Positions 1,971 to 16,492 of a stretch of 40,042 nucleotides of DNA are shown one piece after another. Source of the stretch: an uncultured Opitutaceae bacterium (GTDB lineage Bacteria > Verrucomicrobiota > Verrucomicrobiia > Opitutales > Opitutaceae); assembly GCA_903862595.1 (NCBI GenBank), contig CAIOYO010000106.1, positions 1-40,042 of the forward strand, given 5' to 3'. The number at the start of each line of letters is the position of its first letter. Position 1 is the stretch's first letter. The notes under the pieces are model-generated. The model saw only the letters and a list, made by a program, of their open reading frames with translations, was not told where the DNA came from and searched no databases. A program made the translations under genes and the position numbers.

Positions 1971-3422
1971 ATGTCCGGTGCTCCCACTCTCCTTTGGTTC
2001 CGACAAGACCTGCGTGTGCAGGACAACGCCGCGCTGGCGGCGGCGATTGAGCGCGGGCAGGCTATCGTGCCGGTGTACATTCTGGATGAGGCGGGGGAGG
2101 GGGCCTGGCGACTGGGTGGGGCGTCCCGCTGGTGGCTGCACGGCTCACTTGAGTCCTTGGATCGAGCGCTGCGACAACGCGGCCTCCGTCTAACGTTGGC
2201 GTGTGGAGACAGCGCACAGGTGCTAAACGAACTGGTGGCTGAGACGGGTGCTGGCGCGGTCTACTGGAATCGACGCTATGGGCCGTCCAGCATTGCCCGC
2301 GACAGTGCCATCAAGACCGATCTTGCTGCGCGTGGCGTTGAGGCGCGCAGCTTCAACACCAGTCTCCTCTTTGAGCCTCAGACGATCGCGAACAAGCAAG
2401 GACGACCGTTTCAAGTCTTCACGCCGTACTGGAGGCATTGTCTGACGTTGCCCGTCGGTGCACCGACGTTGATCAAGAGCGGCGCCCTCCGCGCCCCGGC
2501 TTCGTGGCCCGCGACGCGGCCGCTTGAGTCTCTCGAACTGCGACCCACGATTCCATGGGATCGTGGTTTCCATGGCGCATGGACGCCCGGTGAGGAGGGG
2601 GCGCGGCAGCGGCTCGCCCAGTTCCTTGCTCAGGCGGTCGCAGCGTACGGTGAGGCTCGCGACATCCCGTCGATCGACGGCGTCTCCCGGCTTTCCCCCC
2701 ATCTGCATTTTGGAGAGATCGGGCCGCGGCAAATCTGGGCGGCCGCTGCCGAGCTCGGCCGAGAGCGTGGAGTCTTCCCGGCCAATGTCGGCGTCGCCAA
2801 GTTCCTCGCCGAAGTGGGCTGGCGCGAGTTTGCCCACCACCTGCTCTATCACTTTCCGCAGACCGCGGCTCAACCCCTACGTGCTGAGTTCGCGCGTTTC
2901 CCCTGGCGCGCCGATCCGGGCGGTCACCTGCTGCGCGCCTGGCAACGCGGACGCACGGGGTACCCGATCGTCGATGCCGGGATGCGGCAACTTTGGACAA
3001 CGGGCTGGATGCACAATCGGGTGCGCATGATCGTGGCTTCTTTCTTGGTCAAGCACCTGCGGCTCTCGTGGACCGAAGGGGCGCGCTGGTTCTGGGACAC
3101 CCTCGTGGACGCGGATCTCGCCAGCAACACGCTGGGGTGGCAATGGAGTGCCGGCTGCGGCGCCGACGCGGCGCCTTATTTCCGGATTTTTGCGCCCGTG
3201 CTGCAGGGAGAAAAGTTCGACGGCGAGGGCGAGTACGTTCGGCGCTGGTGCCCCGAGCTGGCCCGCCTTCCCGCGCGGTTCATCCACCAACCGTGGGCGG
3301 CCCCGGAGTCGGTGCTGCAGGTGGCGGGCGTTCGCTTGGGTGAATCTTACCCGCGCCCCATCGTCGATCACGCGAAGGCGCGCGCCGAAGCCTTGAGCGC
3401 ATTCCAGAGCTTGCGCGCGTGA
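1971..3422 (+). CDS. phr: Class I deoxyribodipyrimidine (CPD) photolyase
   Basis: Light-dependent repair of cyclobutane pyrimidine dimers using FADH-. It has 483 residues. The N-terminal alpha/beta antenna domain opens with LLWFRQDLRVQDN, and the C-terminal FAD domain contains the family signature TGYPIVDAGMRQL followed by GWMHNRVRM and the NTLGWQWSAG segment, all canonical for class I photolyases. The gene overlaps the next one by 4 bases (GTGA), so the two photolyases are probably translated together. A photolyase-type cryptochrome with lost repair activity cannot be excluded from sequence alone, but the conserved FAD and substrate pocket make repair the default reading. Confidence 0.95.
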   Translation: MSGAPTLLWFRQDLRVQDNAALAAAIERGQAIVPVYILDEAGEGAWRLGGASRWWLHGSLESLDRALRQRGLRLTLACGDSAQVLNELVAETGAGAVYWNRRYGPSSIARDSAIKTDLAARGVEARSFNTSLLFEPQTIANKQGRPFQVFTPYWRHCLTLPVGAPTLIKSGALRAPASWPATRPLESLELRPTIPWDRGFHGAWTPGEEGARQRLAQFLAQAVAAYGEARDIPSIDGVSRLSPHLHFGEIGPRQIWAAAAELGRERGVFPANVGVAKFLAEVGWREFAHHLLYHFPQTAAQPLRAEFARFPWRADPGGHLLRAWQRGRTGYPIVDAGMRQLWTTGWMHNRVRMIVASFLVKHLRLSWTEGARWFWDTLVDADLASNTLGWQWSAGCGADAAPYFRIFAPVLQGEKFDGEGEYVRRWCPELARLPARFIHQPWAAPESVLQVAGVRLGESYPRPIVDHAKARAEALSAFQSLRA

Positions 3423-5023
3423 CGAATCCGCACGTCGCCACCATGCCTTCCGCTCGCCATCTCATCCTCGTGCTCGGAGACCAGCTCGACCTCCAGTCGG
3501 CTGCGTTCGACGGCATCGATCGGGCACGGGACGTCGTCTGGATGGCCGAGGTCGCGGGCGAATCGGAGAATGTGTGGTCGACGCAGGTCCGGACCACGCT
3601 GTTTCTCTCGGCCATGCGTCACTTCCGCGATCGTGCGGTCAAGGTCGGCTACCGGCTCGACTACACGCCGCTCGACGATCCCAAGAACAGCCAGACTCTC
3701 GCGGGTGAGTTGAGGCGCGCCGTCAGCCGGCTGCGGCCGGAGCGCCTTATCGTGGTGCAGCCGGGAGAGTGGCGGGTGCAGGAGGCCCTCAAAGAGGCGG
3801 CCGGAGCGCTCGGTCTTGCGCTTGAGATGCGCGAGGACCGACACTTTCTCTGTTCGCCCGCCGACTTCGCCCGCCACGCCAAGGGCCGCCGGCAGCTCCG
3901 CATGGAGTTTTTCTACCGGGAAATGCGGCGGCGGCACGACGTCCTTGTCTCCGCGGACGGTGAGCCGGAGGGTGGAGAGTGGAACTACGACCACGAAAAC
4001 CGCGAGAGCTTCGGGCGTACCGCGCCGACTCCGCCCGCCCCACGAGCATTCCCCCCTGATCGCGTCACGCAGGAGGTCATTGCGCTCGTGCGCGCGCGAT
4101 TCCCGGACCGACCCGGCGACTTGGAGCGCTTTGATTGGCCGGTGACTCCCGAGGAGGCGGAGGCGGCGCTGGAGGACTTTGTGGCGCAGCGACTGGTCCA
4201 GTTCGGGCGCTTTCAGGATGCGATCTGGCTCGGGCAACCGTGGCTTTATCACTCGCGTTTGGCGGCGGCGATGAATCTCAAGTTGCTGGACCCCCGGCGC
4301 GTCATCGCGGCAGCAACGGCTGCCTACCGCGCGGGCCGCGCAGAATTGGCTGCCGTGGAGGGATTCATCCGTCAAATCCTCGGCTGGCGGGAGTACGTCC
4401 GCGGCATCTACTGGCACTTGATGCCGGATTACCTCGAGCGGAATGCACTCGGGGCCAAGGAAGCATTGCCGGCGTTTTTCTGGACCGGTGAGGTGCCGAT
4501 GGCGTGCCTTCGCGACGCGATCGGTCAGAGCCTCTCGCTGGGCTATGCGCATCATATTCAGCGTCTGATGGTGACCGGCCTGTACTCGCTCCTGCTCGGA
4601 GTGAAGCCGCAAGCGGTGCACGCGTGGTACCTGGCGGTCTATGTCGATGCGGTCGAGTGGGTCGAACTCCCCAATACGCTCGGCATGTCGCAGTACGGGG
4701 ATGGCGGAGTGATGGCATCCAAGCCTTACGTCGCCACCGGACGCTACATCGAGCGAATGAGCAACGCCTGCCGCCAGTGCCGCTTTGATCCGGCGGAAGC
4801 GACCGGCCCGCGGGCTTGCCCGTTCACCACGCTCTACTGGGATTTTCTGCTGCGGCATCGCGACCAGTTGCAGAAGAATCCCCGCATGAGCCTGCAGGTG
4901 CGCAACGTGGAGAAACTGACTCCGGAGCGGGTGCACTTGATTCGCTCCCAGGCGGAGCAAATTCGCGCCAACGGCGGCGTGCCAACGGCACCCGGTGAGA
5001 CGGCTCTCTCTCTGTTCTCATGA
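3419..5023 (+). CDS. FeS-cluster cryptochrome/photolyase (FeS-BCP, PhrB/CryPro type)
   Basis: Member of the bacterial (6-4) photolyase group that carries a [4Fe-4S] cluster as well as FAD. It has 534 residues from the GTG at 3419, or 526 from the ATG at 3443, which is also plausible. Four cysteines at 363, 451, 454 and 467 have the 88/3/13 spacing known for the cluster ligands of Agrobacterium PhrB; they lie in MACLRDAIGQ, ACRQCRF and RACPF. The N-terminal half is the lumazine-antenna DASS-like domain opening with LILVLGDQL. Known members repair (6-4) photoproducts or act as photoreceptors. It overlaps both neighbours by 4 bases. Symbol left blank because phrB is used inconsistently for this family. 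Confidence 0.93.
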   Translation: MTNPHVATMPSARHLILVLGDQLDLQSAAFDGIDRARDVVWMAEVAGESENVWSTQVRTTLFLSAMRHFRDRAVKVGYRLDYTPLDDPKNSQTLAGELRRAVSRLRPERLIVVQPGEWRVQEALKEAAGALGLALEMREDRHFLCSPADFARHAKGRRQLRMEFFYREMRRRHDVLVSADGEPEGGEWNYDHENRESFGRTAPTPPAPRAFPPDRVTQEVIALVRARFPDRPGDLERFDWPVTPEEAEAALEDFVAQRLVQFGRFQDAIWLGQPWLYHSRLAAAMNLKLLDPRRVIAAATAAYRAGRAELAAVEGFIRQILGWREYVRGIYWHLMPDYLERNALGAKEALPAFFWTGEVPMACLRDAIGQSLSLGYAHHIQRLMVTGLYSLLLGVKPQAVHAWYLAVYVDAVEWVELPNTLGMSQYGDGGVMASKPYVATGRYIERMSNACRQCRFDPAEATGPRACPFTTLYWDFLLRHRDQLQKNPRMSLQVRNVEKLTPERVHLIRSQAEQIRANGGVPTAPGETALSLFS

Positions 5024-5211
5024 GCACGATGCGACGCAAGAGTGACCTCCCGACCAAGACCTGCGTGGCGTGCGGGCGTCCATTTGCTTGGCGTAAGAAG
5101 TGGGAGCGCTGCTGGAACGAGGTGCTCACCTGCTCGGAGCGTTGCCGGCGGGTGCGGCGCAGCGGTCCTCGGGCGGAGCGCGCGACGGGCGAAACGCCAC
5201 GGGCGCAATAG
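5020..5211 (+). CDS. DUF2256 small zinc-ribbon-like protein
   Basis: A 63-residue protein with five cysteines (15, 18, 31, 38, 42). A CxxC in TCVACGRPF, the basic WRKKWER stretch and the CSERCRR end match the DUF2256 family. The cysteine arrangement suggests one bound metal ion, probably zinc. The family is often found beside cryptochrome/photolyase genes of the FeS type, and here it starts inside the stop of that gene (ATGA), so joint expression is near certain. Function is not established; a role in cluster assembly or in handling the photolyase is a guess from context. The tail after residue 45 is low in conserved features. Confidence 0.88.
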   Translation: MSTMRRKSDLPTKTCVACGRPFAWRKKWERCWNEVLTCSERCRRVRRSGPRAERATGETPRAQ

Positions 5212-5232
5212 CGACAGCGTCCCCTTTAATTG

Positions 5233-6618
5233 ATGAAACTCACCTACCGCATTCGTCTTAAGCGCTCGGCCGCGGATGCGTTTGCCTGGCATGAGCGTCC
5301 GGGCGCGTTTGAGCGTTTCGCGCCGCCGTGGGTGCGGACCGAGGTGTTGCATCGCTCGGGTGGCATTCGCGACGGAGGACGGTTGACGATGGTGCAATAC
5401 CTCGGCCCGTTGCCGCTGCGCTGGGAAATCGAGCATGTGGATTTTATCCCGGGGCGTCAGTTCTGCGACGTGGCCCGGCGCTCTCCGTTCCGTCGCTGGC
5501 GGCATGTGCATCGCGTGGAGTCGATCGGTCCGGACGCCTGTGAGTGGATCGACGAAGTAGACTTCGCCTTTTGGGGCGGGGGGCTCGCGCGGGGCGTCCT
5601 GGGCGGCACGACGCGTTCTGAGCTGGACCGCTTGTTTGCTTACCGGCAGGCGCGACTGAAGGCGGACTTGGAGTCGAGGCCGCAAGCCGTGACGGGTCGA
5701 ATCGTCGTGGCGGGGGCATCAGGGCTCGTGGGCTCGGCGCTGACGGCCTTGCTCTCGACGCGCGGGTATGAGGTGGTCCGCCTGGTGCGTCGGCCGGCCC
5801 AGGCGAGCGATGAACGGTTCTGGGATCCGACGCGTCCGGAAACGCTGGGTGACGTGCTGTCCGGAGCTGCGGCGCTCGTCAGCCTCGGCGGGGCCGGGAT
5901 AGCGGACCGCCGCTGGTGCAAGGCTCGGAAAGCGGAACTCCGCTCAAGCCGATTGGAAGGCACCCGAGCGTTGGTTGAGGGATTGCGCCGAGCGTCCCGG
6001 CCCCCGTCCGTGTTTCTGTCGGCCTCCGCGATTGGGATCTACGGGGTCAATACGAATCGCTCAGTCGATGAGACGAGTGCGCGCGGAGACGGCTTCCTGG
6101 CCGAGCTGACGCAGGATTGGGAACAGGAGGCGGCGCTGGCCGAATCCGCGGGGGTGCGTCCGATTCTCCTTCGGACCGGCATCGTGCTTTCGCCGCGGGG
6201 TGGGGCACTGGCTCGCATGCTGCCGATATTTCGCTGTGGCCTGGGTGGTCCGATCGGGCGGGGCGAGCGGGGCATGAGTTGGATCTCGCTGGAGGACGAA
6301 ATCGCGGCGATCGCCTCCCTGCTGTCTCGGCCGGACGCGCGCGGAGCTTACAACCTCGTGGCGCCCAATCCGGTCAGCGGCGCAGAGTTCGCGCGCGAAC
6401 TCGGTCGAGCTCTGCATCGCCCGGCCTTCATGCCGGTGCCGGTTCCGGTGTTGCGTGCAGCATTCGGCGAAATGGCGACCGAAACGATCTTGGCCAGCCA
6501 GTGGGTAAGACCCGCGCGGCTGCTCCACGAGGGATTTGTCTTCCAGCATGCGTCCCTCGGCGACGCGTTGCGGGACATGCTCGGGACGAACAAAGCGTCA
6601 TCCCAACTCGAATCATGA
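5233..6618 (+). CDS. SRPBCC domain fused to TIGR01777/SDR39U1 epimerase-like protein
   Basis: 461 residues with two domains. Residues 1 to about 150 look like a SRPBCC (START-like) ligand-binding fold; residues from about 155 are an extended SDR with the nucleotide-binding GASGLVGSAL motif, the SASAIGIYG segment and the WISLEDE block typical of the TIGR01777 (YfcH/SDR39U1) family. The substrate of this family is unknown. The ATG at 5233 is chosen over the preceding TTG at 5230. The gene sits 21 bases after the DUF2256 gene and overlaps the flavoprotein by 4 bases. SDR39U1 and SRPBCC genes recur beside photolyases in other bacteria, so this is probably part of a light-response module. Confidence 0.88.
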   Translation: MKLTYRIRLKRSAADAFAWHERPGAFERFAPPWVRTEVLHRSGGIRDGGRLTMVQYLGPLPLRWEIEHVDFIPGRQFCDVARRSPFRRWRHVHRVESIGPDACEWIDEVDFAFWGGGLARGVLGGTTRSELDRLFAYRQARLKADLESRPQAVTGRIVVAGASGLVGSALTALLSTRGYEVVRLVRRPAQASDERFWDPTRPETLGDVLSGAAALVSLGGAGIADRRWCKARKAELRSSRLEGTRALVEGLRRASRPPSVFLSASAIGIYGVNTNRSVDETSARGDGFLAELTQDWEQEAALAESAGVRPILLRTGIVLSPRGGALARMLPIFRCGLGGPIGRGERGMSWISLEDEIAAIASLLSRPDARGAYNLVAPNPVSGAEFARELGRALHRPAFMPVPVPVLRAAFGEMATETILASQWVRPARLLHEGFVFQHASLGDALRDMLGTNKASSQLES

Positions 6619-7577
6619 AGCGAAACATTGCGATTATTGGCGCGGGCGTGGCCGGCTTGTCCGCGGCGAGCGTTCTTCAGGCATCCGGGGCGCGCCTCGT
6701 GGTCCTCGAAAAGAGCCGCGGTGTAGGCGGGCGCATGGCGACTAAGCGCGTCGGTGAGGCCGTCTTCGACACCGGTGCACAGTTCTTCACCGCGCGTGAG
6801 GACGGTTTCGCGTCCGAGGTCCAGCGTTGGGCGGATGCGGGCAAAGCTGACCGTTGGCCGGGCTCCGAGCATCGTTGGATTGGTCGCGGCGGCATGACGG
6901 CGGTACCGAAGCTTCTGGCTGAGGGCATTGATGTGGAGCGGGAGCGCAAGGTCACGGCGGCGCGGCATCATCCGAGCGGCTACTGGGAGCTGGATATCGA
7001 GAACGCGGAGATTCTTCGCGCTGAACGATTGGTTCTGACGGCGCCGATGCCGCAGGCGCTGGCCTTGCTCGAGGCCGGAGGCGTCCGACTGCCCGACGCC
7101 ATCGCGGCGGAGCTACGCAGCGTGACCTATCGACCCTGTCTGGCGGCGCTACTGGTGCTGGATGGCCCAAGCGCGGTACCGCAAGAAGGGGTCGCGCCCA
7201 GCGAGGGACCGCTGCGTTGGGTGGCGGACAACTCGCAGAAGGGCCTTTGTCGGCCGACGGCAGTCACCCTGCATGCCACCCCGGAGTTTTCCGCCCGGGA
7301 GTATGGGCGTCCGGAATCCGAGGTCCTCGAGCAGATGATTGCCGCCGCGCAGGCCTGGCTGGGGGGCCGCATTGTCTCCTCAGCGACCCTCCACCGTTGG
7401 CGATACAGCGAGCCGGTGGGTTCCTTGCCCAAGGCCTTCAGCTGGGTTCCTGAACTCTCTTTGGGCTTCGCGGGGGACGCTTTCCTCGGGGGACGGGTGG
7501 AGGCAGCTGCGCTCTCGGGGATCGCACTGGGTCATCACATCGCGTCCCAGCTCATCGCCGCGCCGGTAGACCTCTAG
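6615..7577 (+). CDS. Renalase-like FAD-dependent oxidoreductase
   Basis: 320 residues. The Rossmann dinucleotide motif GAGVAGLSAA begins at residue 9, followed by the LEKSRGVGGRMATKR segment, a hallmark of the renalase/amine-oxidase-like NAD(P)-binding family; DTGAQFFTAR follows it, and the C-terminal GFAGDAFLGGRVEAA block closes the FAD site. Human and bacterial renalases oxidise aberrant forms of NAD(P)H, but specificity cannot be read here. The start is the ATG at 6615, inside the stop of the preceding SDR gene (ATGA). Its presence at the end of a photolyase block agrees with the frequent pairing of this family with photolyases. Exact reaction unknown. Confidence 0.86.
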   Translation: MKRNIAIIGAGVAGLSAASVLQASGARLVVLEKSRGVGGRMATKRVGEAVFDTGAQFFTAREDGFASEVQRWADAGKADRWPGSEHRWIGRGGMTAVPKLLAEGIDVERERKVTAARHHPSGYWELDIENAEILRAERLVLTAPMPQALALLEAGGVRLPDAIAAELRSVTYRPCLAALLVLDGPSAVPQEGVAPSEGPLRWVADNSQKGLCRPTAVTLHATPEFSAREYGRPESEVLEQMIAAAQAWLGGRIVSSATLHRWRYSEPVGSLPKAFSWVPELSLGFAGDAFLGGRVEAAALSGIALGHHIASQLIAAPVDL

Positions 7578-7644: not shown

Positions 7645-8115
7645 ATGTCCGACGCCGTCACCTCTCTCATCCCGCACCGTCCGCCCTTCCTTTTCGTCGA
7701 CGAGATCGTCAGCGAGACGGCTGATTCGCTCGTAGCGCGGCGAACCTGGCGAGCCGAGGAGGACTTTTACCGCGGCCACTATCCGGGCGCGCCGATTACC
7801 CCGGGGGTGCTGCTGTGTGAGGCGGTATTCCAGACCGGCGCCTTGTTCCTCGCCCGGGCGGCGGGTCCGGAGGGAGTCTCGACTCCCGGAGTGCCGCTTC
7901 TCGCCAAGATCAACGACGTGCGCTTTCGGCAGCCGATCTACCCCGGCGACACCGTGCTGATTGAAGTCCGCCGGAAGGAGCGACTGGGCGAGTTCAGCCT
8001 GATGACGGGATCCATGCGAAAGGCCGACGGCGCGCGGGTGCTCAGCGTGGATTTCACCGTGGCATGGAAGACACCGTCCTCCGACGCACCCGCCAACGGT
8101 CAACCCTCGACGTAA
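7645..8115 (+). CDS. fabZ: FabZ-like 3-hydroxyacyl-ACP dehydratase
   Basis: Hot-dog fold dehydratase of 156 residues that converts 3-hydroxyacyl-ACP to trans-2-enoyl-ACP. The catalytic histidine is in GHYPGAPITPG (His45) and the catalytic acid in LLCEAVFQTG (Glu59), equivalent to the FabZ His/Glu pair. The opening LIPHRPPFLFVDE is typical. The start is the ATG at 7645; there is no Shine-Dalgarno, only CGCCTC. Seven bases separate it from the FabI-like gene. Because it sits directly ahead of fabI-like, oleA and oleB, it may be a specialised paralog serving hydrocarbon or special fatty-acid synthesis rather than the general housekeeping FabZ. The rest of the genome would be needed to decide. 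Confidence 0.9.
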   Translation: MSDAVTSLIPHRPPFLFVDEIVSETADSLVARRTWRAEEDFYRGHYPGAPITPGVLLCEAVFQTGALFLARAAGPEGVSTPGVPLLAKINDVRFRQPIYPGDTVLIEVRRKERLGEFSLMTGSMRKADGARVLSVDFTVAWKTPSSDAPANGQPST

Positions 8116-8122
8116 GCCCTCC

Positions 8123-8938
8123 ATGTCGGACTTTCTCCACGTTTCCGGCAAGGTGTTCGTCGTGATGGGCGTAGCCAACCGCAAGAGCGTCGCTTGGGCG
8201 ATCGCGAGCGCCTTGGAAGAGCAGGGGGCGAAGGTGGTCTACAGCGTACGCAGCGAGACGCGGAAGGCCTCCCTCGCGACGCTCCTCGGTGACCGGCCGA
8301 CTTTCGTGTGCGACGTGGAGAAGGACGGTGCCGCGGCGACGCTGGCCAGCGCCATCGCGGCAGCGGGGTACGGACCGATCCACGGCCTGGTTCATTCCAT
8401 CGCCTTCGCGAACTATGCGCAGGGATTCAAGCCCTTCCACCAGACGGGGCGGGGCGACTTCCTGCAGGCGACCGCCATCTCGGCATTTTCGTTGGTCGAG
8501 CTCGCCGAGGCGTTCCGTCCGCTCTTCGCGCCGAATGCGTCCGTCGTTAGCATCGGCATCTCGTCGCTGCTCGTGACCCCTGACAACTACGGGTACATGG
8601 GACCGATCAAGGCGGCGTTGGAGTCGTGCTCCCGGTTTCTCGCGAAGTCCTTCAGCGCGTTTTCCGAGGTACGCTTCAATGTCGTCGGCGCCGGACCCCT
8701 CAAGACGAGCGCGTCGGCGGGGATTCCCGGTTACCTGGAGAGCTACCTGTACGCGGAGAAACTGACGTTCCGGAAGCGCGCGCTGGCCACCGCTGAGGTC
8801 GCGAACGCAGCGCTGTTTCTCCTCAGCGAGCGCAGCAGCGGAATGAACGGGACAACCGTCGTGGTGGACGCTGGATTGGGCTCGAATGAATTTGACGCCG
8901 AGGTCATCCGCCTGGCGATGCGGCCCAAGCAGCCCTGA
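8123..8938 (+). CDS. FabI-like enoyl-ACP reductase with an altered second tyrosine
   Basis: 271-residue SDR of the FabI group. The nucleotide-binding region GVANRKSVAWAIA resembles the FabI GVAS-type loop; the catalytic Tyr and Lys are in NYGYMGPIK at positions 156 and 163, the same numbers as in E. coli FabI; GAGPLKTSASAGI matches the substrate-loop start. The conserved second tyrosine (Tyr146 of E. coli FabI) aligns by ungapped counting with Ile146. It is flanked at 7 and 2 bases by fabZ-like and oleA, so all four genes are probably one transcript. It may reduce enoyl-ACP for this cluster, or be the general reductase; function beyond family is inferred. Confidence 0.87.
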   Translation: MSDFLHVSGKVFVVMGVANRKSVAWAIASALEEQGAKVVYSVRSETRKASLATLLGDRPTFVCDVEKDGAAATLASAIAAAGYGPIHGLVHSIAFANYAQGFKPFHQTGRGDFLQATAISAFSLVELAEAFRPLFAPNASVVSIGISSLLVTPDNYGYMGPIKAALESCSRFLAKSFSAFSEVRFNVVGAGPLKTSASAGIPGYLESYLYAEKLTFRKRALATAEVANAALFLLSERSSGMNGTTVVVDAGLGSNEFDAEVIRLAMRPKQP

Positions 8939-8940
8939 TC

Positions 8941-9981
8941 ATGGCGCGGTTCCATTTTCGCTCCACCTGCATTGACTCGTTGGCGGCGGTCCTGCCGCCC
9001 GAGCGTCTGAGCAGCGCGGAAATCGAGCAGCGGCTCGAGCCGCTGTACCGGCGCCTCCGCCTGCCCGAGGGGCGCCTCGAGCTGATGACAGGCATTCGCG
9101 AGCGGCGGGTTTGGCCGGTCGGCACGCGCCCCTCGGACGCGAGCGCGGCTGCTGGAAGAGCGGTGCTCGAACGTTCGTCCATTCCGGCGGAGGCAGTCGA
9201 GCTGTTCATTCATGCCGCCGTGTGCCGCGATATGCTCGAGCCCGCCACTGCGGCGTTTGCGCATCGCAAGATCGGCCTGCCGCCCAGTGCCCAGATCTTC
9301 GATCTTTCCAATGCGTGCCTCGGTTTTCTGAACGCGCTCACGGTTGCCGGAGGCTTGATCGAGTCCGGCCAGATTCGCTGTGCTCTGGTTGTGGCAGGGG
9401 AGAACGGCCGGCCGCTCGTGGACGAGACGATCCGCCATCTGGCGACGGCGCCGCTCACCCGCGATCAGATCAAGCCCTTCTTCGCGAACCTCACCATCGG
9501 TTCCGGCGCGGTCGGAGCGATGGTCTGCCACCGGGACCTCGCGCCCTCGGGTCACCGCCTGCACTCGGGCGTGGCCCGCGCTGCCACCGCGCACAGTGAG
9601 TTGTGTCAGGGTGACATGCATGGAGCCGATGCACTGGCGATGCAGACGGATTCGGAACGACTCCTCGAGGCGGGCGTGGCGCTCGCTGCGGAGACGTGGA
9701 GTGAGTTCCGCGAAACGTCGGGACGCGGCGCGGATGGATTCAGCCGCTTCGTGTGCCATCAGGTCGGCAGCGTGCACCGCCGGCGCCTTTACGAGCGCCT
9801 GGGGCTGGACGTCGCGCGCGACTTCTCGACCTTCGAGGAGTACGGCAACATGGGGTCTGTTTCGCTGCCAGCGACGTTGGCCGCCGCCGAGGCAGCAGGA
9901 GCGGTCGCAGCCGGCAGTCATGTGGGGCTCCTCGGCATCGGTTCGGGTTTGAACTGCCTGATGCTGGATCTCGAATGGTGA
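8941..9981 (+). CDS. oleA: OleA-type thiolase: head-to-head acyl-CoA condensing enzyme
   Basis: 346-residue KAS III-fold enzyme. OleA joins two fatty acyl thioesters by non-decarboxylative Claisen condensation to a beta-keto acid, the first step of long-chain olefin formation. Active-site Cys126 lies in SNACLGFLN, His273 in CHQVGSVH and Asn303 in YGNMGS. Glu100 in DMLEPATAA is the extra glutamate that distinguishes OleA from FabH, and the C-terminus LLGIGSGLNC is an OleA hallmark that I recognise from Xanthomonas OleA. ERRVW near residue 55 also fits. It starts 2 bases after the FabI-like stop and shares one base with oleB. An ordinary FabH is the alternative, but the Glu and C-terminus speak against it. 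Confidence 0.87.
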   Translation: MARFHFRSTCIDSLAAVLPPERLSSAEIEQRLEPLYRRLRLPEGRLELMTGIRERRVWPVGTRPSDASAAAGRAVLERSSIPAEAVELFIHAAVCRDMLEPATAAFAHRKIGLPPSAQIFDLSNACLGFLNALTVAGGLIESGQIRCALVVAGENGRPLVDETIRHLATAPLTRDQIKPFFANLTIGSGAVGAMVCHRDLAPSGHRLHSGVARAATAHSELCQGDMHGADALAMQTDSERLLEAGVALAAETWSEFRETSGRGADGFSRFVCHQVGSVHRRRLYERLGLDVARDFSTFEEYGNMGSVSLPATLAAAEAAGAVAAGSHVGLLGIGSGLNCLMLDLEW

Positions 9982-10874
9982 TGAACGACTGCGCTCCATT
10001 GCCCGACTGGCTGCTTCGGCTGTATCCGTTTACCCCGTCGTCACTCACTACGGCCCGCGGGGCACGCATGAGCTTTGTCGATGTCGGGCCGCGAAGTTCG
10101 GAAGCGGTGCTGTTTCTGCACGGCAATCCTACATGGTCATTCTTTTACCGCGATCTGATCGCCTCGCTGCGCGATGAGATCCGCTGCGTCGCGCCGGATC
10201 ACGTGGGAATGGGCCTGTCGGACAAGCCGGAGGGGTACACTTACACACTCGAACAACGCATCGCGGACATCGAGGCGCTCGTTGAGTCACTCGGGCTGAC
10301 GCGGATCCATCTGGTCGTGCACGATTGGGGTGGGGCGATCGGCTGCGGTTTTGCCGTGCGAAACCCCAGCCGCGTCGGCCGCATCGTGCTGCTGAACACC
10401 GCTGCATTCCGGTCACCCCTGATTCCGGCTAGCATCGCGCTGTGTCGCACGCATTTTCCCGGTACTGCGCTGGTGCGCGGGCTGAATGCGTTTGCCGGAC
10501 CCGCCGTGCGCATGGCCATGCATCGTCGGCGCCTCTCCGCCGATGAGCGCCGGGGGTATCTCTTCCCGTACGATTCTTGGGCCCATCGCGTGGCCGTAAA
10601 TGCGTTTGTGAAGGATATTCCGCTGCATCCGGACCACGTCAGCTACGCCACGCTCCGCGAGGTCGAGCAGGGGCTTCCTTCGCTCCGCTCGCATCCGGTG
10701 AGCATCGTCTGGGGTGGCCGCGACTTCTGCTTCCACGACGCCTTTCTCGCCCGCTGGCGCGAGATCCTCCCCGAGGCCCGGATCACGCGCCTCGCCGATG
10801 TCGGTCACTATGTCTTGGACGATGGTGGCTCCGAGGCGATCACGCTTTGTCGGCGGGGCGTGCTCGGGGCCTGA
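9981..10874 (+). CDS. oleB: OleB-type alpha/beta hydrolase (beta-lactone decarboxylase)
   Basis: 297-residue haloalkane-dehalogenase-like hydrolase. In the Ole pathway OleB decarboxylates the beta-lactone made by OleC to a cis-olefin. The oxyanion loop HGNPTWS is at residues 47-53, the aspartate nucleophile is Asp115 in VVHDWGGAIG, the probable acid is Asp248 in WGGRDFCF, and the base is His276 in VGHYVLDD. This is the dehalogenase-type Asp-Asp-His set. The start ATG at 9981 shares its A with the oleA stop (TGATG). A haloalkane dehalogenase is the alternative, but adjacency to oleA makes OleB much more likely. No oleC or oleD follows: a hairpin and a convergent gene come next. Confidence 0.83.
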   Translation: MNDCAPLPDWLLRLYPFTPSSLTTARGARMSFVDVGPRSSEAVLFLHGNPTWSFFYRDLIASLRDEIRCVAPDHVGMGLSDKPEGYTYTLEQRIADIEALVESLGLTRIHLVVHDWGGAIGCGFAVRNPSRVGRIVLLNTAAFRSPLIPASIALCRTHFPGTALVRGLNAFAGPAVRMAMHRRRLSADERRGYLFPYDSWAHRVAVNAFVKDIPLHPDHVSYATLREVEQGLPSLRSHPVSIVWGGRDFCFHDAFLARWREILPEARITRLADVGHYVLDDGGSEAITLCRRGVLGA

Positions 10875-10893: not shown

Positions 10894-10930
10894 GATCGGG
10901 TCGCGCCGCTTGGGCGAAGCCGACCCGATC
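10894..10930. terminator. Long hairpin between convergent oleB and deacylase genes
   Basis: A perfect 10-base stem GATCGGGTCG (10894-10903) pairs with CGACCCGATC (10921-10930); the 17-base loop can form a further CGCC/GGCG stem. It lies in the 60-base gap between two convergent genes, so it may stop transcription from both sides. There is no T-run on either side, so intrinsic termination strength is uncertain. Confidence 0.6.
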
Positions 10931-10934
10931 ACCG

Positions 10935-12560
10935 TCACGGAGTCGACAGGATACGGGCCTCACGGCGCACGGTGCGGCCGGGCCGGTGTCCGGTGAGCGT
11001 TCCGTCGCGGATCACGAATTGTCCCGCCACGATGACATGATCCATTCCCTCGGCGTGGTGGTGGGGGTCGCGAAAGGTTGATTGGGTTGCGAGCCGGGCG
11101 AGGTCAAACGAGACGAGGTCGGCGACGAATCCGGCACGAATGAGGCCGCGCTGTCCGAGTGGAAACTGCCGAGCCGGCAAGTCGGTCATGCGCCGAACCG
11201 CCTCCTCGAGGCTCATGAGCCGCTCGTCGCGAACGTAGTGGGCAAGGAAGCGAACATTGTTGCCGTAGCCACGCGGGTGGGGGACTCCGACTCCCATGCG
11301 ACGCGCGCCGGAATCCGAGGCGATCATCGTGAGCGGCAGCGCGAGAAACTCGCGGAGGTTCGGTTCGCTCATGCCATGGAACACGGCTGAAGCTCCGCCG
11401 CGCAGTTCGACCTGAAGAATCGCATCGAGTTGCGCCTCGAGGGAGTCGGAGCCGTAAAGCTTTCGGGCAGCCTCCGGGACGCTCATGCCGTTGAGCGAGG
11501 GGTCTTCGGTGAAGTTCGCGATCACGGCGTACGTGTAGTCGGACCGCTGGCCGCGTTGCAGAGTTGCCTTCATCTCGGAACGGATGCGGTTCCGCTCGGC
11601 GGGATCGTCGAGCCGTTCGCGTAGCCGCTCGCGCCCGCCTTCGCGCGCGAAGTCGGGGATGGTGGTACCGAGTGACGTACTCGAGGCGGTGTAGAGATAC
11701 TGGTCATGCGCCACCTGGATGCCCTCGGCGCGGGCGCGGGCGAGGCGTTCAATGACCGGCCGGGTCAGTCCCCACGCGGCCGGAGTCGAGAGCTTGATAT
11801 GGGAGATTTGGACCGGGGTGCCGGCCGCTCGACCGATCGTCAGAGCTTCCTCAATGGCCTCGAGAATGCGCGCGTTCTCGTAGCGCATGTGGCTCGCGTA
11901 CAGTCCGCCGGACTCGGCGGCCACCTTGGCCAACGCCACGATCTCGTCGGTCCGGGCGAACGTGCCGGGGAGGTAGATCAGTCCGGTACTGAGACCAACC
12001 GCGCCAGCGCGCATCGCGGCCGCGACCAAGGCCCGCATCTGGTCGAGTTCCGCAGCGGTGGGTGGCCTTGCGAAGCTACCGCCCATGACCTGAGCGCGAA
12101 CAGTGTTGTGGCCGACCAGTGTGGCGAGATTGAGTGACAGGCGCGCGGCTTCGAGTTCCCGGAAGAACTCCGCGACATCCAAGGCGGACCCGCCGCAGTT
12201 GCCCGTCACCAGCGTGGTCACGCCCATGCGGATGAAGTTTTCCGCGGCGGGAACCTCTGCGAGGTCCTCCACGTGCGTGTGCACATCAATGAAACCGGGG
12301 GCGAGGATGCGGCCCTGCAGGTCGATCTCCGTCGGAGCGGAGAACGGCACCGAGCCAACTGCGACGATGCGGTCTCCGCTGATTGCGACATCACCCCGAA
12401 CTGCGGGCGTGCCGCTCCCATCAATGATCGAGGCATTGCGCAGGATCACGTCCGCCCGGTTCGGCGCCGCCTCTGCGATCGAGACGAATGCGATAGCACA
12501 CAGGACAAAGGCCGCGACGGCGCGCTGCAGGCGAGGTTGAGCGGGGCGGGTGACGCACAT
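10935..12560 (-). CDS. Secreted N-acyl-D-amino-acid deacylase family amidohydrolase
   Basis: 541 residues from the ATG at 12560. Removes the acyl group from N-acyl-D-amino acids, or a related amide. A signal peptide is likely: basic start, hydrophobic stretch AAFVLCAIAFVSIA and an AEA cleavage site near residue 31. The amidohydrolase metal motif is GFIDVHTHVED, followed by TLVTGNCGG, a signature of the D-aminoacylase group; HISHIKLS and SDSGARRMG carry further metal/substrate residues. Upstream in-frame starts exist (ATGs at 12611 and 12698) but would put a long tail before the signal peptide. It diverges from the DeoR gene, so the two may share a control region. Some homologues act on dipeptides or peptidoglycan fragments. 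Confidence 0.88.
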   Translation of the reverse strand: MCVTRPAQPRLQRAVAAFVLCAIAFVSIAEAAPNRADVILRNASIIDGSGTPAVRGDVAISGDRIVAVGSVPFSAPTEIDLQGRILAPGFIDVHTHVEDLAEVPAAENFIRMGVTTLVTGNCGGSALDVAEFFRELEAARLSLNLATLVGHNTVRAQVMGGSFARPPTAAELDQMRALVAAAMRAGAVGLSTGLIYLPGTFARTDEIVALAKVAAESGGLYASHMRYENARILEAIEEALTIGRAAGTPVQISHIKLSTPAAWGLTRPVIERLARARAEGIQVAHDQYLYTASSTSLGTTIPDFAREGGRERLRERLDDPAERNRIRSEMKATLQRGQRSDYTYAVIANFTEDPSLNGMSVPEAARKLYGSDSLEAQLDAILQVELRGGASAVFHGMSEPNLREFLALPLTMIASDSGARRMGVGVPHPRGYGNNVRFLAHYVRDERLMSLEEAVRRMTDLPARQFPLGQRGLIRAGFVADLVSFDLARLATQSTFRDPHHHAEGMDHVIVAGQFVIRDGTLTGHRPGRTVRREARILSTP

Positions 12561-12700
12561 GACGGAACTGTTGTTTCCGACGGTCGCAGCGAGGGCGATT
12601 TCTTTTCGCATCCGAAAGCCCAGTGTGAGCGAAATTGAGCGGAACGAGCGAGTGTGATCTATGGCGTTGAAGCTTGGCGCCATCATTCCACGCTTCACTC

Positions 12701-13468
12701 GTGCTTACGGAGCAGCGCCGTCGATCGATTCTCCGCCTCCTTGCCGACCAGAACACGGTGCGGCTGGAGGAGATTTGCGCGCGTTTCGGGGTCTCGGCCG
12801 CGACGGCGCGTCGGGATGCCGAAGCGATCGCGCGCTCGGCCTTGGCTCACCGTACAAGGGGAGGGCTCCTGGCGCTGGATGCGGCGATGACTGAGCCCGC
12901 CTATTCGCGCAAAGCGGCGGCGGCCGCCGGGACCAAGTCGCGGCTCGGCCAACGCGTCGCGGAGCTGCTCCCGGAGGACGGCAGCATCTTCATCGACGGA
13001 GGAAGCACGTGCTTGGAAGTAGCGCGCGCGGTCCTCGATCGTCCGCAGCTCCGCGTCTACACAAATTCCGTCACGTTGCTCCAGCTCGCAACGGAAGGTC
13101 GGGCGAACGTCTACTCCATCGGCGGCGAGGTGCGGTCGGTGAGTTTGGCACTCGTGGGCGCGTTTGCGTTGAGTTGGCTGGAGCGGCTCCGCTTCGACGC
13201 CGCGGTGATTGGAGCCTCGGGCTTGGATGCTGAGCAGGGAGCGACGACGACTGAGCTCGCGGAGGCGGCGATCAAAGCCGAGGCGCTCAAGCGGGCTCGC
13301 TTGCGCATTCTCGTCGCCCATTCCGAGAAGTGGTCCAGGCCCGCTGCTTTGCGCTTTGCCCCGTGGTCGGCGTTCCACCACTTTGTTACGGACCGCGCCC
13401 CGCCGCGGTCCGACGCCGCGCCCCTCTCGGCTGCAGGCGTCGAGATCCATCTTCTATCTTCCTCATGA
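12701..13468 (+). CDS. DeoR-family transcriptional regulator of the sugar operon
   Basis: 255 residues from the GTG at 12701, which gives the typical LTEQRRRSILRLL opening; a TTG at 12674 would add 9 residues. The N-terminal winged helix has RLEEICARFGVSAATARRDA with the recognition helix near residues 31-41, then RTRGGLL. The C-terminal DeoRC sensor domain shows FIDGGSTCLEVARA and YTNSVTLLQL, and normally binds a phosphorylated sugar. The stop overlaps the aldolase start (ATGA). Family members usually repress their own operon until the pathway sugar phosphate builds up, so this is probably the local regulator. An unusual SAATARRDA replaces the common MTIRRDL. Confidence 0.9.
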   Translation: MLTEQRRRSILRLLADQNTVRLEEICARFGVSAATARRDAEAIARSALAHRTRGGLLALDAAMTEPAYSRKAAAAAGTKSRLGQRVAELLPEDGSIFIDGGSTCLEVARAVLDRPQLRVYTNSVTLLQLATEGRANVYSIGGEVRSVSLALVGAFALSWLERLRFDAAVIGASGLDAEQGATTTELAEAAIKAEALKRARLRILVAHSEKWSRPAALRFAPWSAFHHFVTDRAPPRSDAAPLSAAGVEIHLLSSS

Positions 13469-14295
13469 AATCCGCCCGTCTCAACCGGCTGTTCAACCCG
13501 CGCACTGGACGATGCTTCGACGTCGCTCTCGATCACGGCTTCTTCAATGAAGGTGCCTTCCTCCCTGGAATCGAGGACCTCCCGACGGCCGTGGCACGTC
13601 TCGTCGAGGCCGGCCCAGACGCGATCCAGCTCACGATCGGACAAGCGCGCCATCTGCAGGGTCTGCCGGTCCGTCCGAAGCCGGCGTTGGTCTTGCGCAC
13701 CGACGTCGCCAACGTGTACGGCACCCAGCTGCCCGAGGTTCTCTTCTCGCGCATGATCGAGGAGCCGGTCACGCAGGCCTTGCGTGTCGACGCCGCGTGC
13801 GTGGTCGTGAATCTGTTTCGCATTCCGGGTGCGCCGACCGTGACGGATCAGTGCATCCAGAACATTCTCCGCATCAAGCCCGCCTGCGATGCGTTCGGGA
13901 TGCCGCTCATGATCGAGCCTCTGGTTTTTCAGCCGAATGAGAAGGCCGGCGGCTACATGGTCGATGGCGACCCGAAGAAGATCATTCCCCTCGTTCGCCA
14001 AGCGGCGGAACTGGGCGCCGATGTGATCAAAGCGGACCCGACCGATGACGTCTCGATTTACCATCAGGTGATTCAGACGGCCGGCGGCGTGCCGGTCCTC
14101 GTCCGCGGCGGCAGCAAGGCACCCGAGGCCGAGATCCTCGCTCGCACCGAGGCCATCTTGAAGCAGGGGGCCGCTGGAATCGTCTACGGCCGCAATATCA
14201 TCCAGCATCCTCGTCCGGCAGCGATCACCCGGGCGTTGATGGCGGTGGTTCACGACGGCAAAACGGCGGCGCAGGCGATGGAGCATCTGCGATGA
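13465..14295 (+). CDS. Class I (DhnA/LsrF-type) aldolase
   Basis: 276-residue TIM-barrel Schiff-base aldolase of the DhnA/FbaB/LsrF group. The segment ALDHGFFNEG (residues 21-30) is the family's first active-site loop; Lys189 in GADVIKADPTDD is the expected Schiff-base lysine; VLVRGGSK and IVYGRNI are phosphate-binding loops. It therefore should cleave or form a phosphorylated keto sugar. Substrate is not readable: fructose-1,6-bisphosphate, a 2-keto-3-deoxy sugar phosphate or an autoinducer-2-type compound are all known in the family. The start ATG at 13465 lies inside the regulator stop and its own stop overlaps the dehydrogenase start (ATGA both times). Confidence 0.9.
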   Translation: MKSARLNRLFNPRTGRCFDVALDHGFFNEGAFLPGIEDLPTAVARLVEAGPDAIQLTIGQARHLQGLPVRPKPALVLRTDVANVYGTQLPEVLFSRMIEEPVTQALRVDAACVVVNLFRIPGAPTVTDQCIQNILRIKPACDAFGMPLMIEPLVFQPNEKAGGYMVDGDPKKIIPLVRQAAELGADVIKADPTDDVSIYHQVIQTAGGVPVLVRGGSKAPEAEILARTEAILKQGAAGIVYGRNIIQHPRPAAITRALMAVVHDGKTAAQAMEHLR

Positions 14296-15443
14296 GCGCC
14301 TCCGAACTCTCAACCGTCCGCGTCGCTGTCATCGGTGCCGGCCTCATGGGACGTGAGGTGGCCAGTGCGTTCGGGCGCTGGTTCGCGCTCCTCGACTCGG
14401 ATGTACGTCCGGAGCTGGTCGGAGTCTGCGACGTCAATCCCGAGGCCATCAAATGGTTCCGCGCCATTCCCGGCGTCCGCTACTTTGAGACCGATCCTGC
14501 GCAACTGCTCCGGCATGCGGACATCGATGTCGTCTACGTAGCTGTCCCGCATCATCTCCACGAAAATCTGTACCTGGACGTTCTGCGGTCCGGAAAGGAT
14601 CTTTTCGCGGAGAAGCCCTTTGGCATCGACTTGCCGAGCGCGCGGCGCGTCCGCGATGAGGCGGCGCGCTTGGGTCGGTTCGTGCGCATTTCCTCGGAGT
14701 TTCCGTTTCTACCGGGCGCGCTCCGGGCGCTCAACTACGCGCGGGAAGGGCGCCTCGGGCGTCCGATCGAGGCGCGCTGCGCGTTCCTGCACTCGAGCGA
14801 TCTTGATCCCAACAAGCCGATCAACTGGAAGCGCCAGTCGCGTTTCTGCGGCGAGGCCGGGGTCATGAACGATCTTGGCATGCACGTCGCGCACCTCCCG
14901 CTGCGGCTCGGCTGGAAGCCGGACCACGTCTTTGCGACGCTCCAGCGGGTGTACACCCAGCGGCCGGACGGGAAGGGTGGCATGACCTCGAGCGATACCT
15001 GGGATAACGCCACCGTGCGGGCCACGGCCACGATTCAGGGCGAGAGCGTGCCTCTCTGTCTCGAAATGAAGCGCCTCGCTCCTGGTGAGACCAACACGTG
15101 GATCTTCGAACTGCTCGGGACCGACGGCGGCGTGCGCTTCAGCACGAAGGAGCCAAAAACGTTTTGGACCTTCCAACGGGGTAGTGACCAGCTCTGGCTG
15201 CGCACCGACCTCGGCTTCGGTACGCCGTTCAAGACGATCACCGGCGGCATTTTCGAGCCCGGCTTCCCCGATATCCTCCAGCAGATGTGGGCGGCGTTCT
15301 TCGCCGAGCGCAAGGGGACCCTCGGATCCCGTGTCGGCTGCGCCACGCCGGACGAGGCCGTCGCCCAGCACGAGCTCTGGGCCGCCGCGCTCAAGTCCGT
15401 CGCCGAGCGCCGCTGCATCACGATTGCTGAAGTTTCCTCATGA
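14292..15443 (+). CDS. Gfo/Idh/MocA-family sugar or polyol dehydrogenase
   Basis: 383 residues. N-terminal Rossmann domain with GAGLMG at 15-20, and the family motif EKPFG with the catalytic lysine at residue 108. The C-terminal alpha/beta domain contains GVMNDLGMHVAHLPL, where the aspartate and histidine typical of the family's active site are seen. Members oxidise a hydroxyl of a sugar, inositol or related compound with NAD(P). The rather polar insertion QRPDGKGGMTSSDTWDN may shape the substrate site. Overlaps both neighbours by 4 bases, so it is part of the same pathway as the aldolase and kinase. Substrate unknown. Confidence 0.91.
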   Translation: MSASELSTVRVAVIGAGLMGREVASAFGRWFALLDSDVRPELVGVCDVNPEAIKWFRAIPGVRYFETDPAQLLRHADIDVVYVAVPHHLHENLYLDVLRSGKDLFAEKPFGIDLPSARRVRDEAARLGRFVRISSEFPFLPGALRALNYAREGRLGRPIEARCAFLHSSDLDPNKPINWKRQSRFCGEAGVMNDLGMHVAHLPLRLGWKPDHVFATLQRVYTQRPDGKGGMTSSDTWDNATVRATATIQGESVPLCLEMKRLAPGETNTWIFELLGTDGGVRFSTKEPKTFWTFQRGSDQLWLRTDLGFGTPFKTITGGIFEPGFPDILQQMWAAFFAERKGTLGSRVGCATPDEAVAQHELWAAALKSVAERRCITIAEVSS

Positions 15444-16492
15444 CCGACCCGCACGACACAGCAGGGCGCTCTGGCGTGATTGCCGGGGGAAATTGGATCG
15501 TCGACCACGTCAAGATTATCGACGCCTGGCCGCAGCAGGACACCTTGGCCAACATCCTCAGCCAGACGGACGCGAACGGCGGTTCGCCCTACAACATCCT
15601 CGTCGATCTGGCGAAGATGGGGGCCGATTTTCCGCTGGAGGCGGTGGGCTTGGTGGGTGATGACGCGGACGGGCGGCTGATCCGCGCCGAGTGCTCTGCG
15701 CTCGGCATCAAGACCGATGCGCTGCAGAGCACCCGGAAGGCGGCGACCAGCTATACGGACGTCATGAGCGTCCAGAGCACGGGGCGCCGCAGCTTCTTCC
15801 ACCAGCGCGGCGCCAATGCGCTGCTGGGTCCGGAGCACTTCGACTTCGCGACGACGCGGGCGAAACATTTCCACCTGGGTTACGCGCTGCTGCTCGATCG
15901 CCTCGACGGCCTGATTGACGGTGTACCCGGCATGCAGCTCGTATTCGCGGCGGCCCACGCGGCCGGCCTGACGACCTCGCTGGATTGTGTCAGCGAGAGC
16001 GGTGACCGCTTCGCGTCGGTCGTCACACCGGTGCTGCCTCAGGTCGACGTCTTCTTCGCCAACGATTTCGAGGCGGATAAGATCACTGGCATCGCGGTGC
16101 GAAAAGGAGATCGGCTGGATCGTGCCGGCACGGAGGCGGCAGCTCGCCGTCTGATTGAACTGGGGGTGCGGGCGTGGGTAGTGTTGCATTTTCCGGAAGG
16201 CAGCTGCGCCTGTAGCCGGCAGGGCGAAATCGTTTGGCAGGGCAGTCTGCAGGTACCACGTAGCGCGATCCGGGGCGCGGCTGGCGCAGGGGACGCCTTC
16301 GCCGCGGGCGTTCTCCTTGGCTGGCACAACGGCCACGATTTCTTGTGGAACCTCAAGCTTGGCGTCGGTGCGGCGGCGGCGTGCCTTCGGGATCCGACCT
16401 GTTCAGGAAGCATTCCCAGCTTGGCCGAGGTCGATGCGTTGGCCCGCGAGTGGGGCTACCGCGATCCGTTCGCGGATTTTGCCCCGCAGTAG
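15440..16492 (+). CDS. PfkB-family carbohydrate kinase (operon kinase)
   Basis: 350-residue ribokinase-like kinase. The nucleotide/anion-hole motif GAGDAF is at 282-287, with Asp285 as catalytic base; GGSPYNILVDLAKMG near residue 47 matches the substrate-binding GGxxxN region, and GLVGDDADG follows it. It phosphorylates a sugar or keto acid from ATP. As last gene of the deoR-aldolase-dehydrogenase-kinase operon, it probably makes the phosphate ester that the class I aldolase cleaves. The start ATG at 15440 overlaps the dehydrogenase stop. Specificity cannot be read; the IolC/KdgK analogy is by pathway logic only. Confidence 0.9.
   Translation: MTDPHDTAGRSGVIAGGNWIVDHVKIIDAWPQQDTLANILSQTDANGGSPYNILVDLAKMGADFPLEAVGLVGDDADGRLIRAECSALGIKTDALQSTRKAATSYTDVMSVQSTGRRSFFHQRGANALLGPEHFDFATTRAKHFHLGYALLLDRLDGLIDGVPGMQLVFAAAHAAGLTTSLDCVSESGDRFASVVTPVLPQVDVFFANDFEADKITGIAVRKGDRLDRAGTEAAARRLIELGVRAWVVLHFPEGSCACSRQGEIVWQGSLQVPRSAIRGAAGAGDAFAAGVLLGWHNGHDFLWNLKLGVGAAAACLRDPTCSGSIPSLAEVDALAREWGYRDPFADFAPQ

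Follow-up and report, generated by a model that had tools for sequence, protein, structure and literature searches.

A fabZ-fabI-oleA-oleB cassette in Opitutaceae carries the two ends of a scattered OleABCD pathway, probably joined to dedicated chain builders

Introduction

In the OleABCD pathway, condensation, reduction, beta-lactone closure and decarboxylation lead to an internal olefin. In a 40,042-nucleotide stretch of DNA (the window) from an uncultured, Opitutaceae-like member of the Verrucomicrobiota, oleA and oleB lie directly behind fabZ and fabI, which encode a dehydratase and an enoyl-acyl carrier protein (ACP) reductase. A preliminary description of this locus, made from the sequence alone, noted that oleC and oleD were missing and left three ways out: the two genes could sit elsewhere in the genome, the pathway could end in a ketone, or unrelated genes could take their place, the short-chain dehydrogenase/reductase (SDR) at 5230 being a candidate for OleD. 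It also linked FabZ and FabI to OleA. Where is the rest of the pathway, and what do two fatty-acid enzymes do in front of OleA? We report that a complete but scattered set of Ole enzymes is predicted in the source genome, and that the cassette probably joins the front and back of this pathway to dedicated chain builders feeding OleA.

Results

The four-gene cassette

The draft genome holding the window (contig C106) comprises 3.34 Mb in 397 contigs, with a completeness of 94.8%. The closest named relatives of the window are Opitutaceae and metagenome-assembled genomes (MAGs) of Verrucomicrobiota, and its OleA is 95% identical to that of locus L064. The coordinates, intergenic gaps (7, 2 and -1 bases) and families of the four genes were all as first described (Table 1), with a GTG at 9978 as an alternative start of oleB. 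When gene order was compared across related genomes, as the preliminary description had proposed, fabZ, fabI, oleA and oleB were retained in the same order in 47 of 52 named loci, and oleB lay 3′ of oleA in all 52. In addition, dN/dS was 0.04-0.11 for all four cassette genes (compared with L064 and L027), indicating strong purifying selection. The recurring order and the low dN/dS show that the cassette is not a chance arrangement.

The named loci are L027-L079 without L078, which is from Bacteriovoracaceae; L080 and L081 were omitted as weak ketoacyl-ACP synthase III (KAS III) hits, and L073 and L178, whose OleA is identical, were treated as one locus. Their labels read Opitutaceae, Opitutae, Opitutia or Verrucomicrobia(ta), or name Opitutus, Lacunisphaera, Cephaloticoccus or Ereboglobus. 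Three (L037, L046, L048) are labelled Akkermansia muciniphila and L056 simply 'bacterium'; all 52 were taken as relatives by their OleA identity of 54-95%. Two of them (L054, L070) begin at oleA, so that the fair count for fabI is 47/50.

The gene at 8941 encodes OleA rather than FabH, a grouping with FabH having been named beforehand as the refuting outcome. Its product scored 435 bits against the PRK09258 ketosynthase III family (cut-off 285), compared with 104 bits for PRK09352 and 86 bits for TIGR00747 (fabH) among the FabH-type models, and PRK09258 was above cut-off in none of 14 control genomes. The top relatives in the PDB were 3row and its kin (219 bits), the best entry outside this group being 4ryb (78 bits); 3row, listed there as a 3-oxoacyl-[ACP] synthase III, is what we take to be OleA of X. 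campestris. Cys126, Glu100, His273 and Asn303 were kept in 112/112 aligned rows. In a tree of 34 chosen rows, whose bootstrap was not settled and in which two KAS III proteins of the source genome and the L078 row sat on long branches, the protein grouped with OleA sequences, including the one from the contiguous oleABCD genes of genome G036, and was split at 100/100 from those two KAS III proteins. In these and the following alignments the query counts as a row, and rows with stops or shorter than 80% of the query were excluded; the catalytic roles of the aligned residues are those generally known.

The other three proteins also keep their active-site residues. The OleB protein is an alpha/beta hydrolase (PF00561, 94 bits); among NCBIfam models it matched haloalkane dehalogenases best (144 bits; cut-off 241). 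Its Asp116 and His277 were kept in 82/82 rows, and it is 44% identical to OleB of the contiguous cluster in G036 (L104). The FabZ protein matched the FabA-like domain PF07977 (68 bits) and FabZ models at 89-96 bits, none reaching its cut-off, with His45 and Glu59 kept in 56/56 rows. A special kinship with anammox FabZ was considered and found unsupported: other FabZ entries of the PDB scored 74 bits against 65 for 7qv0, presumably the anammox enzyme. The FabI protein matched PF13561 (188 bits) and, as its top NCBIfam model, a FabI (167 bits; cut-off 362). Tyr156 and Lys163 were kept in 54/54 rows, and position 146 was Ile in all 54; in E. coli FabI a second Tyr occupies this position. The second-best match to this FabI within the source genome reached just 32.8 bits. 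The idea that it is the sole enoyl reductase of the genome was abandoned once FabV was found at C176:17962-18672.

Table 1. Positions of the cassette genes and of the repeat that follows them, numbered from the first letter of the window.
Feature	Position	Strand	Assignment and remarks
fabZ	7645..8115	+	3-hydroxyacyl-ACP dehydratase, FabZ type; His45, Glu59
fabI	8123..8938	+	divergent enoyl-ACP reductase; Tyr156, Lys163 kept, Ile at 146
oleA	8941..9981	+	head-to-head acyl-condensing thiolase; Cys126, Glu100, His273, Asn303
oleB	9981..10874	+	beta-lactone decarboxylase, haloalkane-dehalogenase fold; Asp116, His277 (numbered from GTG at 9978)
inverted repeat	10894..10930		between oleB and convergent ORF 10935-12698 (minus); possible end signal

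oleC and oleD lie on other contigs

Nothing in the window scored above 60 bits when the source genome's OleC and OleD were searched against its whole length by tblastn, and none of the 52 named loci had a match to oleC or oleD reaching 250 bits within the up to 8 kb fetched on each side. Both genes were present elsewhere in the genome, as the first of the three explanations had it. Among 20 AMP-binding stretches, OleC was identified as a lone gene on contig C3 (L019, 1393-3045) with 642 bits against PRK09274 (cut-off 478); its next-best models were two olefin beta-lactone synthetases (550 and 444 bits; cut-offs 900 and 850). OleD was the best of 11 3Beta_HSD stretches in the genome and lies on contig C114 (L082, 1231-2388, minus strand). 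Its top two models were 2-alkyl-3-oxoalkanoate reductases (oxyalk_red_OleD with 379 bits and a second one with 338 bits; cut-offs 580), and the next model scored 126.

The same enzymes were found throughout a set of 76 genomes, which probably shares some organisms with the named loci. OleC was found in 70 (E up to 1e-80), 68 of them above cut-off, and OleD in 70 (E up to 1e-60), while the 14 control genomes gave one OleC and one OleD match, neither above cut-off. Not every first-look candidate was scored in these searches (15/18 in G005 in the OleC search, for example), so some absences may be misses. Of the 68 genomes with both genes, 44 had oleC and oleD at a distance of 2.5 kb or less; in the window's own genus they were apart in all nine members holding both. 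OleABCD is thus, by sequence, complete yet scattered into oleAB and oleCD, and in the window's genus oleC and oleD are split again.

Because OleC and OleD are encoded elsewhere in the genome, neither a ketone end point nor recruitment of the SDR at 5230 is needed. The one point in favour of either is that the window holds neither oleC nor oleD; both enzymes co-occur with OleA (below), and the SDR is a TIGR01777/YfcH protein (310 bits; cut-off 207) with a weak N-terminal Polyketide_cyc match (22.4 bits; cut-off 23.4). We rejected both proposals on the OleC and OleD scores and the TIGR01777 identity, and regard them as barely credible. Replacement by unrelated genes found no support either, given the oleC gene on C3 and the oleD gene on C114.

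FabI occurs with OleA

Across the 76 genomes, OleA was above cut-off in 68, and FabI was present or absent together with OleA in 74 (67 with both, 7 with neither, 1 + 1 discordant; Fisher p = 2.9e-8), in agreement with the earlier proposal that FabZ and FabI are linked to OleA. The FabI search was run at E up to 1e-20, so that a very different FabI could escape it. The discordant genomes were G040, in which contig ends truncate oleA as well as fabI, and G073. The corresponding counts were 67 with both, 5 with neither and 1 + 3 discordant for OleA and OleD, and 66, 4 and 2 + 4 for OleA and OleC. fabI lay within 500 bp of oleA in 62/68 genomes. In G053, G056, G059 and G072 both genes were present but unlinked, and in G019 they were on two contigs.

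Four genomes of four families (G052, G054, G055, G063; 93-98% complete) had no OleA, FabI, OleC or OleD and kept FabV. With G065, of a fifth family and 95% complete, five such genomes lacked OleA and FabI, and FabV was found in all five. G065 differs in having adjacent OleC and OleD genes (C120) although neither OleA nor FabI passed the thresholds applied, which could be an ole pathway minus its first enzyme or an assembly gap. FabV was found in 70/76 genomes, including 7/8 without OleA, and showed no association with OleA (p = 0.5). FabI is therefore not needed as a general enoyl reductase in these genomes and, judged by its distribution, is apparently dedicated to the Ole pathway.

A survey of 387 genomes of the phylum found OleA in 108, 61 in the window's order and 47 in other classes; among these 387, other orders of the window's class had none. 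Gene context was examined for the 47 loci from other classes, 20 of which had an oleB match. Of 21 order-level loci outside the family, 13 were fetched, and fabI was beside oleA in 8. The cassette is mainly a feature of the window's order; the possibility that it is an Ole feature of the whole phylum was rejected on the other-class loci (below).

A larger cluster upstream of the cassette in relatives

Clustering of open reading frames (ORFs) and tblastn revealed four more genes upstream of the cassette in relatives: a FabF-like ketosynthase (KS; 311 bits against a fabF model, cut-off 494), an ACP (87 aa; PF00550, 34 bits against a cut-off of 21) and two Amino_oxidase/CrtI-type flavoenzymes, CrtI1 and CrtI2. 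The best NCBIfam models of the flavoenzymes were carotenoid desaturases and an isomerase, far under cut-off, and their best PDB matches were weak (31 and 29.7 bits, gamma-carotene desaturase). In alignments whose query is itself the L035 row, the Cys-His-His of KS was kept in 18/18 rows and the Ser of ACP in 21/21.

In L035 all genes run in the same direction, with matches starting at 1351 (KS), 2604 (ACP), 2929 (CrtI1), 5284 (CrtI2), 6750 (fabZ), 7181 (fabI), 8001 (oleA) and 9041 (oleB). Of the loci, 32 extended 5.5 kb or more upstream of fabZ; 13 of these had all four genes and 2 more had CrtI2 alone, so that CrtI2 was upstream in 15. In the 13 loci, 6-62 bases separate the end of the CrtI2 match from the start of the fabZ match (in L079 the two overlap by 8). 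The source genome carries KS (82% identical), ACP (82%) and CrtI1 (69%, truncated by the contig end) on contig C31. In these relatives, the cassette forms the end of a larger gene cluster. A search for KS, ACP or CrtI genes beside oleC or oleD (20 stretches) gave no close match, with one 29% KS match in L195. Separately, contig C82 of the source genome (L208) has FabZ-like (27%) and KS-like (29%) matches close together, perhaps another secondary lipid locus.

Related gene sets adjoin oleA in other lineages. On the Bacteriovoracaceae contig L078, KS, ACP, CrtI1, oleA, oleB and oleC form one run; its OleA falls on a long branch among the Opitutales rows of the tree, making a transfer possible. 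In three f57 genomes of another class (L156-L158), KS-ACP-CrtI1 is divergent from oleA, and in an f96 genome (L152) KS-ACP adjoins oleA at the contig end. In G119 (L127), oleA follows immediately after the gene for a 2322-aa Pfa-like protein (TIGR02813, 594 bits, cut-off 1010), and in G036, of the Opitutaceae family, the contiguous oleABCD cluster lies behind a protein with FabA domains. Within the phylum, OleA can thus be found alongside either a type I Pfa-like synthase or this set of discrete enzymes. G036 also has a fabI-oleA pair on C200, so that with its oleABCD genes behind the FabA-domain (PfaC-like) protein (C4; L104, L108) it holds two ole systems.

These arrangements bear on the possibility that the product is not an olefin, FabZ and FabI acting after OleA and OleD to give a 2-alkyl (branched) acid or another beta-lactone-derived lipid. 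Such a product would fit the sharing of an operon by fabZ, fabI, oleA and oleB apart from oleC and oleD, and the scores of OleC and OleD below the strict olefin cut-offs. Yet OleB and OleC, unneeded for a 2-alkyl acid, are retained with OleA; FabZ and FabI use ACP thioesters, as is well established, whereas OleA releases a free keto acid; and the KS-ACP-CrtI1-oleABC run of L078 has no FabZ or FabI match in its 8.7 kb. We consider a non-olefin product very unlikely.

Evidence for and against dedicated chain builders

Several observations weigh against a cassette in which dedicated chain builders feed OleA. OleC (550 of 900) and OleD (379 of 580) are below the strict NCBIfam olefin equivalog cut-offs, although that of OleD looks lineage-bound because none of the 76 genomes passes it. 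Three of the 50 loci with upstream sequence (L061, L069, L075) have no fabI beside oleA; these related loci carry oleA-oleB, with no fabI in the 1.9-2.9 kb available upstream of oleA. G073 has OleA and OleB without FabI or OleC matches. In the 47 loci of other classes, some of them cut by contig ends, neither fabZ nor fabI was beside oleA. The Fisher p values are not corrected for shared ancestry. The window itself lacks KS, ACP, CrtI1 and CrtI2 upstream of the cassette, as do 17 of the 32 loci above, including the nearest relatives L027 and L064; copies elsewhere were checked for the source genome only. CrtI2 was not seen in the source genome, where C31 ends inside CrtI1 and no search was aimed at CrtI2. 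Finally, no FabV match was found in 5 of the 68 FabI-bearing genomes (G008, G009, G018, G053, G060), and FabI may serve general synthesis there.

Part of this evidence would also suit a simpler account, in which FabZ and FabI are spare or co-regulated enzymes of general fatty-acid synthesis riding in the ole operon, while OleA is supplied from the common acyl pool and its olefins are of the ordinary kind. Its support comes from the genomes without FabV, from oleA-oleB without fabZ or fabI in other classes of the phylum, and from the catalytic residues of FabZ and FabI, which are canonical save for position 146 of FabI. In contrast, FabI tracks OleA even in the four genomes where the two are unlinked, FabV could cover general synthesis in most genomes, and the wider cluster brings its own KS, ACP and CrtI-like enzymes. 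General enzymes carried along in the operon are thus an unlikely explanation, and dedicated chain builders joined to the two ends of OleABCD remain the probable one.

Other features of the window and the source genome

The preliminary description had a hairpin close the operon. A hairpin with perfect 10-nt arms (10894-10903 and 10921-10930) and a 17-nt loop is present 3′ of oleB, but it was not called in the terminator scan and lacks a following T tract, so its role as an intrinsic terminator was rejected.

Just before the cassette (1971-7577, plus strand) lie a photolyase-like ORF, a DPRP-type photolyase-related protein (PF04244, 257 bits), the TIGR01777 SDR and a renalase-like flavoprotein ORF, two of these names being assigned by eye. 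Similar ORFs were found in about five relatives each, and the region looks like a light/UV-repair island. At 12674-16492, a DeoR-like regulator is followed by aldolase-like, oxidoreductase-like and sugar-kinase-like ORFs (by eye), probably a sugar catabolic operon. Elsewhere in the source genome, contigs C32, C202, C213 and C311 contain numerous AMP-binding stretches within very long reading frames, and the genome seems to carry several nonribosomal peptide synthetase genes.

Discussion

The linkage and co-occurrence described above suggest that the chain builders feed OleA, and a working order of steps can be proposed. The FabF-like KS with its own ACP (C31 in the source genome) would lengthen the acyl chain, a borrowed housekeeping ketoreductase, FabG, would reduce it, and FabZ would dehydrate it. 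The dedicated FabI would reduce the 2-enoyl bond in every cycle or in some of them, and one or two CrtI-like flavoenzymes may act on double bonds of the ACP-bound chain. OleA would then condense two such chains to a 2-alkyl-3-keto acid, which OleD (C114) would reduce; OleC (C3) would close the beta-lactone, and OleB would remove CO2 to leave a long internal olefin. By analogy with the Pfa-Ole system and with D. psychrophila, the acyl chain may be polyunsaturated.

Compared with OleABCD of Xanthomonas, Shewanella and Micrococcus, all four enzymes are present, OleA passing the PRK09258 and OleC the PRK09274 cut-off. In contrast to those systems, the genes are in three places, oleA-oleB is joined to fabZ-fabI and in relatives also to KS, ACP and two CrtI-like genes, and neither OleC nor OleD reaches its Xanthomonas/Shewanella equivalog cut-off. 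The OleABCD chemistry is ordinary; the partner genes are unusual.

The Pfa-OleABCD system of Shewanella and Geobacter bemidjiensis, which yields C31:9, likewise has KS, ACP, dehydratase and enoyl reductase beside oleA. There these are giant multidomain Pfa proteins, whereas here they are small, separate type II proteins; FabZ and FabI stand in place of FabA-like and PfaD enzymes, and CrtI-like flavoenzymes are added. As to a multidomain Pfa protein beside the ole genes, a FabF-like KS query gave at most 60 bits in the window and around oleC and oleD (L187, L188), no Pfa profile having been run on the source genome. That OleA links the Pfa and Ole pathways was reported by Allemann 2019 (PMC6463001), and the analogy with polyunsaturated Pfa-Ole hydrocarbons draws also on PMC3098273 and PMC4882568.

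A second parallel is the extended type II fatty-acid synthesis (FASII) of Kuenenia, which makes ladderanes, and of Desulfotalea psychrophila, with extra FabF, ACP, FabZ and phytoene-dehydrogenase-like flavoenzymes (PMC2649909). This set stands together in relatives of the window (in L035, for example) and on two contigs in the source genome. Those clusters contain radical S-adenosylmethionine (SAM) enzymes and have FabI elsewhere, and the parts of them described show no ole genes (PMC2649909). No radical SAM enzyme was recognised by eye in the cluster ORF lists of relatives, which were not searched by profile. The parallel drawn here is one of gene content. D. psychrophila, an anaerobe, contains C31:8 and C31:9 hydrocarbons and has no known polyunsaturated fatty acid polyketide synthase, and extended FASII was proposed as their source (Rattray 2009, PMC2649909). 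When two CrtI-like proteins from anammox bacteria were assayed with lycopene in E. coli, neither behaved like CrtI (PMC4790861).

These parallels allow a more specific and tentative idea, which is possible but doubtful: KS, ACP, FabZ, FabI and the two CrtI-like enzymes might form a type II, oxygen-independent polyunsaturated acyl synthase that replaces Pfa and gives OleA C16-like chains for C31:9-type hydrocarbons. The same chemistry might then lie behind the Desulfotalea hydrocarbons and perhaps ladderane precursors.

Previous surveys touch on this group from several sides. An oleABCD operon has been reported in Opitutae MAGs (PMC5673642), and Verrucomicrobia are among the olefin producers of Sukovich et al., as cited in PMC7158056. 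The ole gene contexts listed in PMC7064751 are contiguous oleABCD, oleBC fusions and oleACD, and the words enoyl and dehydratase are absent from that text. The survey in PMC7158056 keeps only OleA hits clustered with OleBCD, so that genomes with scattered ole genes could be passed over. Among the best-ranked open-licence papers, none linking FabZ/FabI or KS-ACP-CrtI to OleA was found. In L050 (Cephaloticoccus capnophilus CV41), a piece of CrtI2, fabZ, fabI, oleA and oleB stand in a row; PMC8277422, however, reports that strain Cv41 has no biosynthetic gene cluster, and standard mining thus seems to overlook these genes.

What looked like an incomplete ole cluster is part of a pathway that the genome, by sequence, encodes in full. 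Bacteria with the cassette live in water, soil and the gut, and some members of the group are in culture. The cassette bears on how polyunsaturated chains arise in bacteria without Pfa synthases or oxygen-dependent desaturases: a set resembling extended FASII is tied here by gene order and co-occurrence to OleA, the starter of such hydrocarbons. The CrtI-like enzymes are candidate acyl-ACP desaturases, isomerases or saturases of a new kind, and the cluster may be a new oxygen-free route to the polyunsaturated chains of these hydrocarbons.

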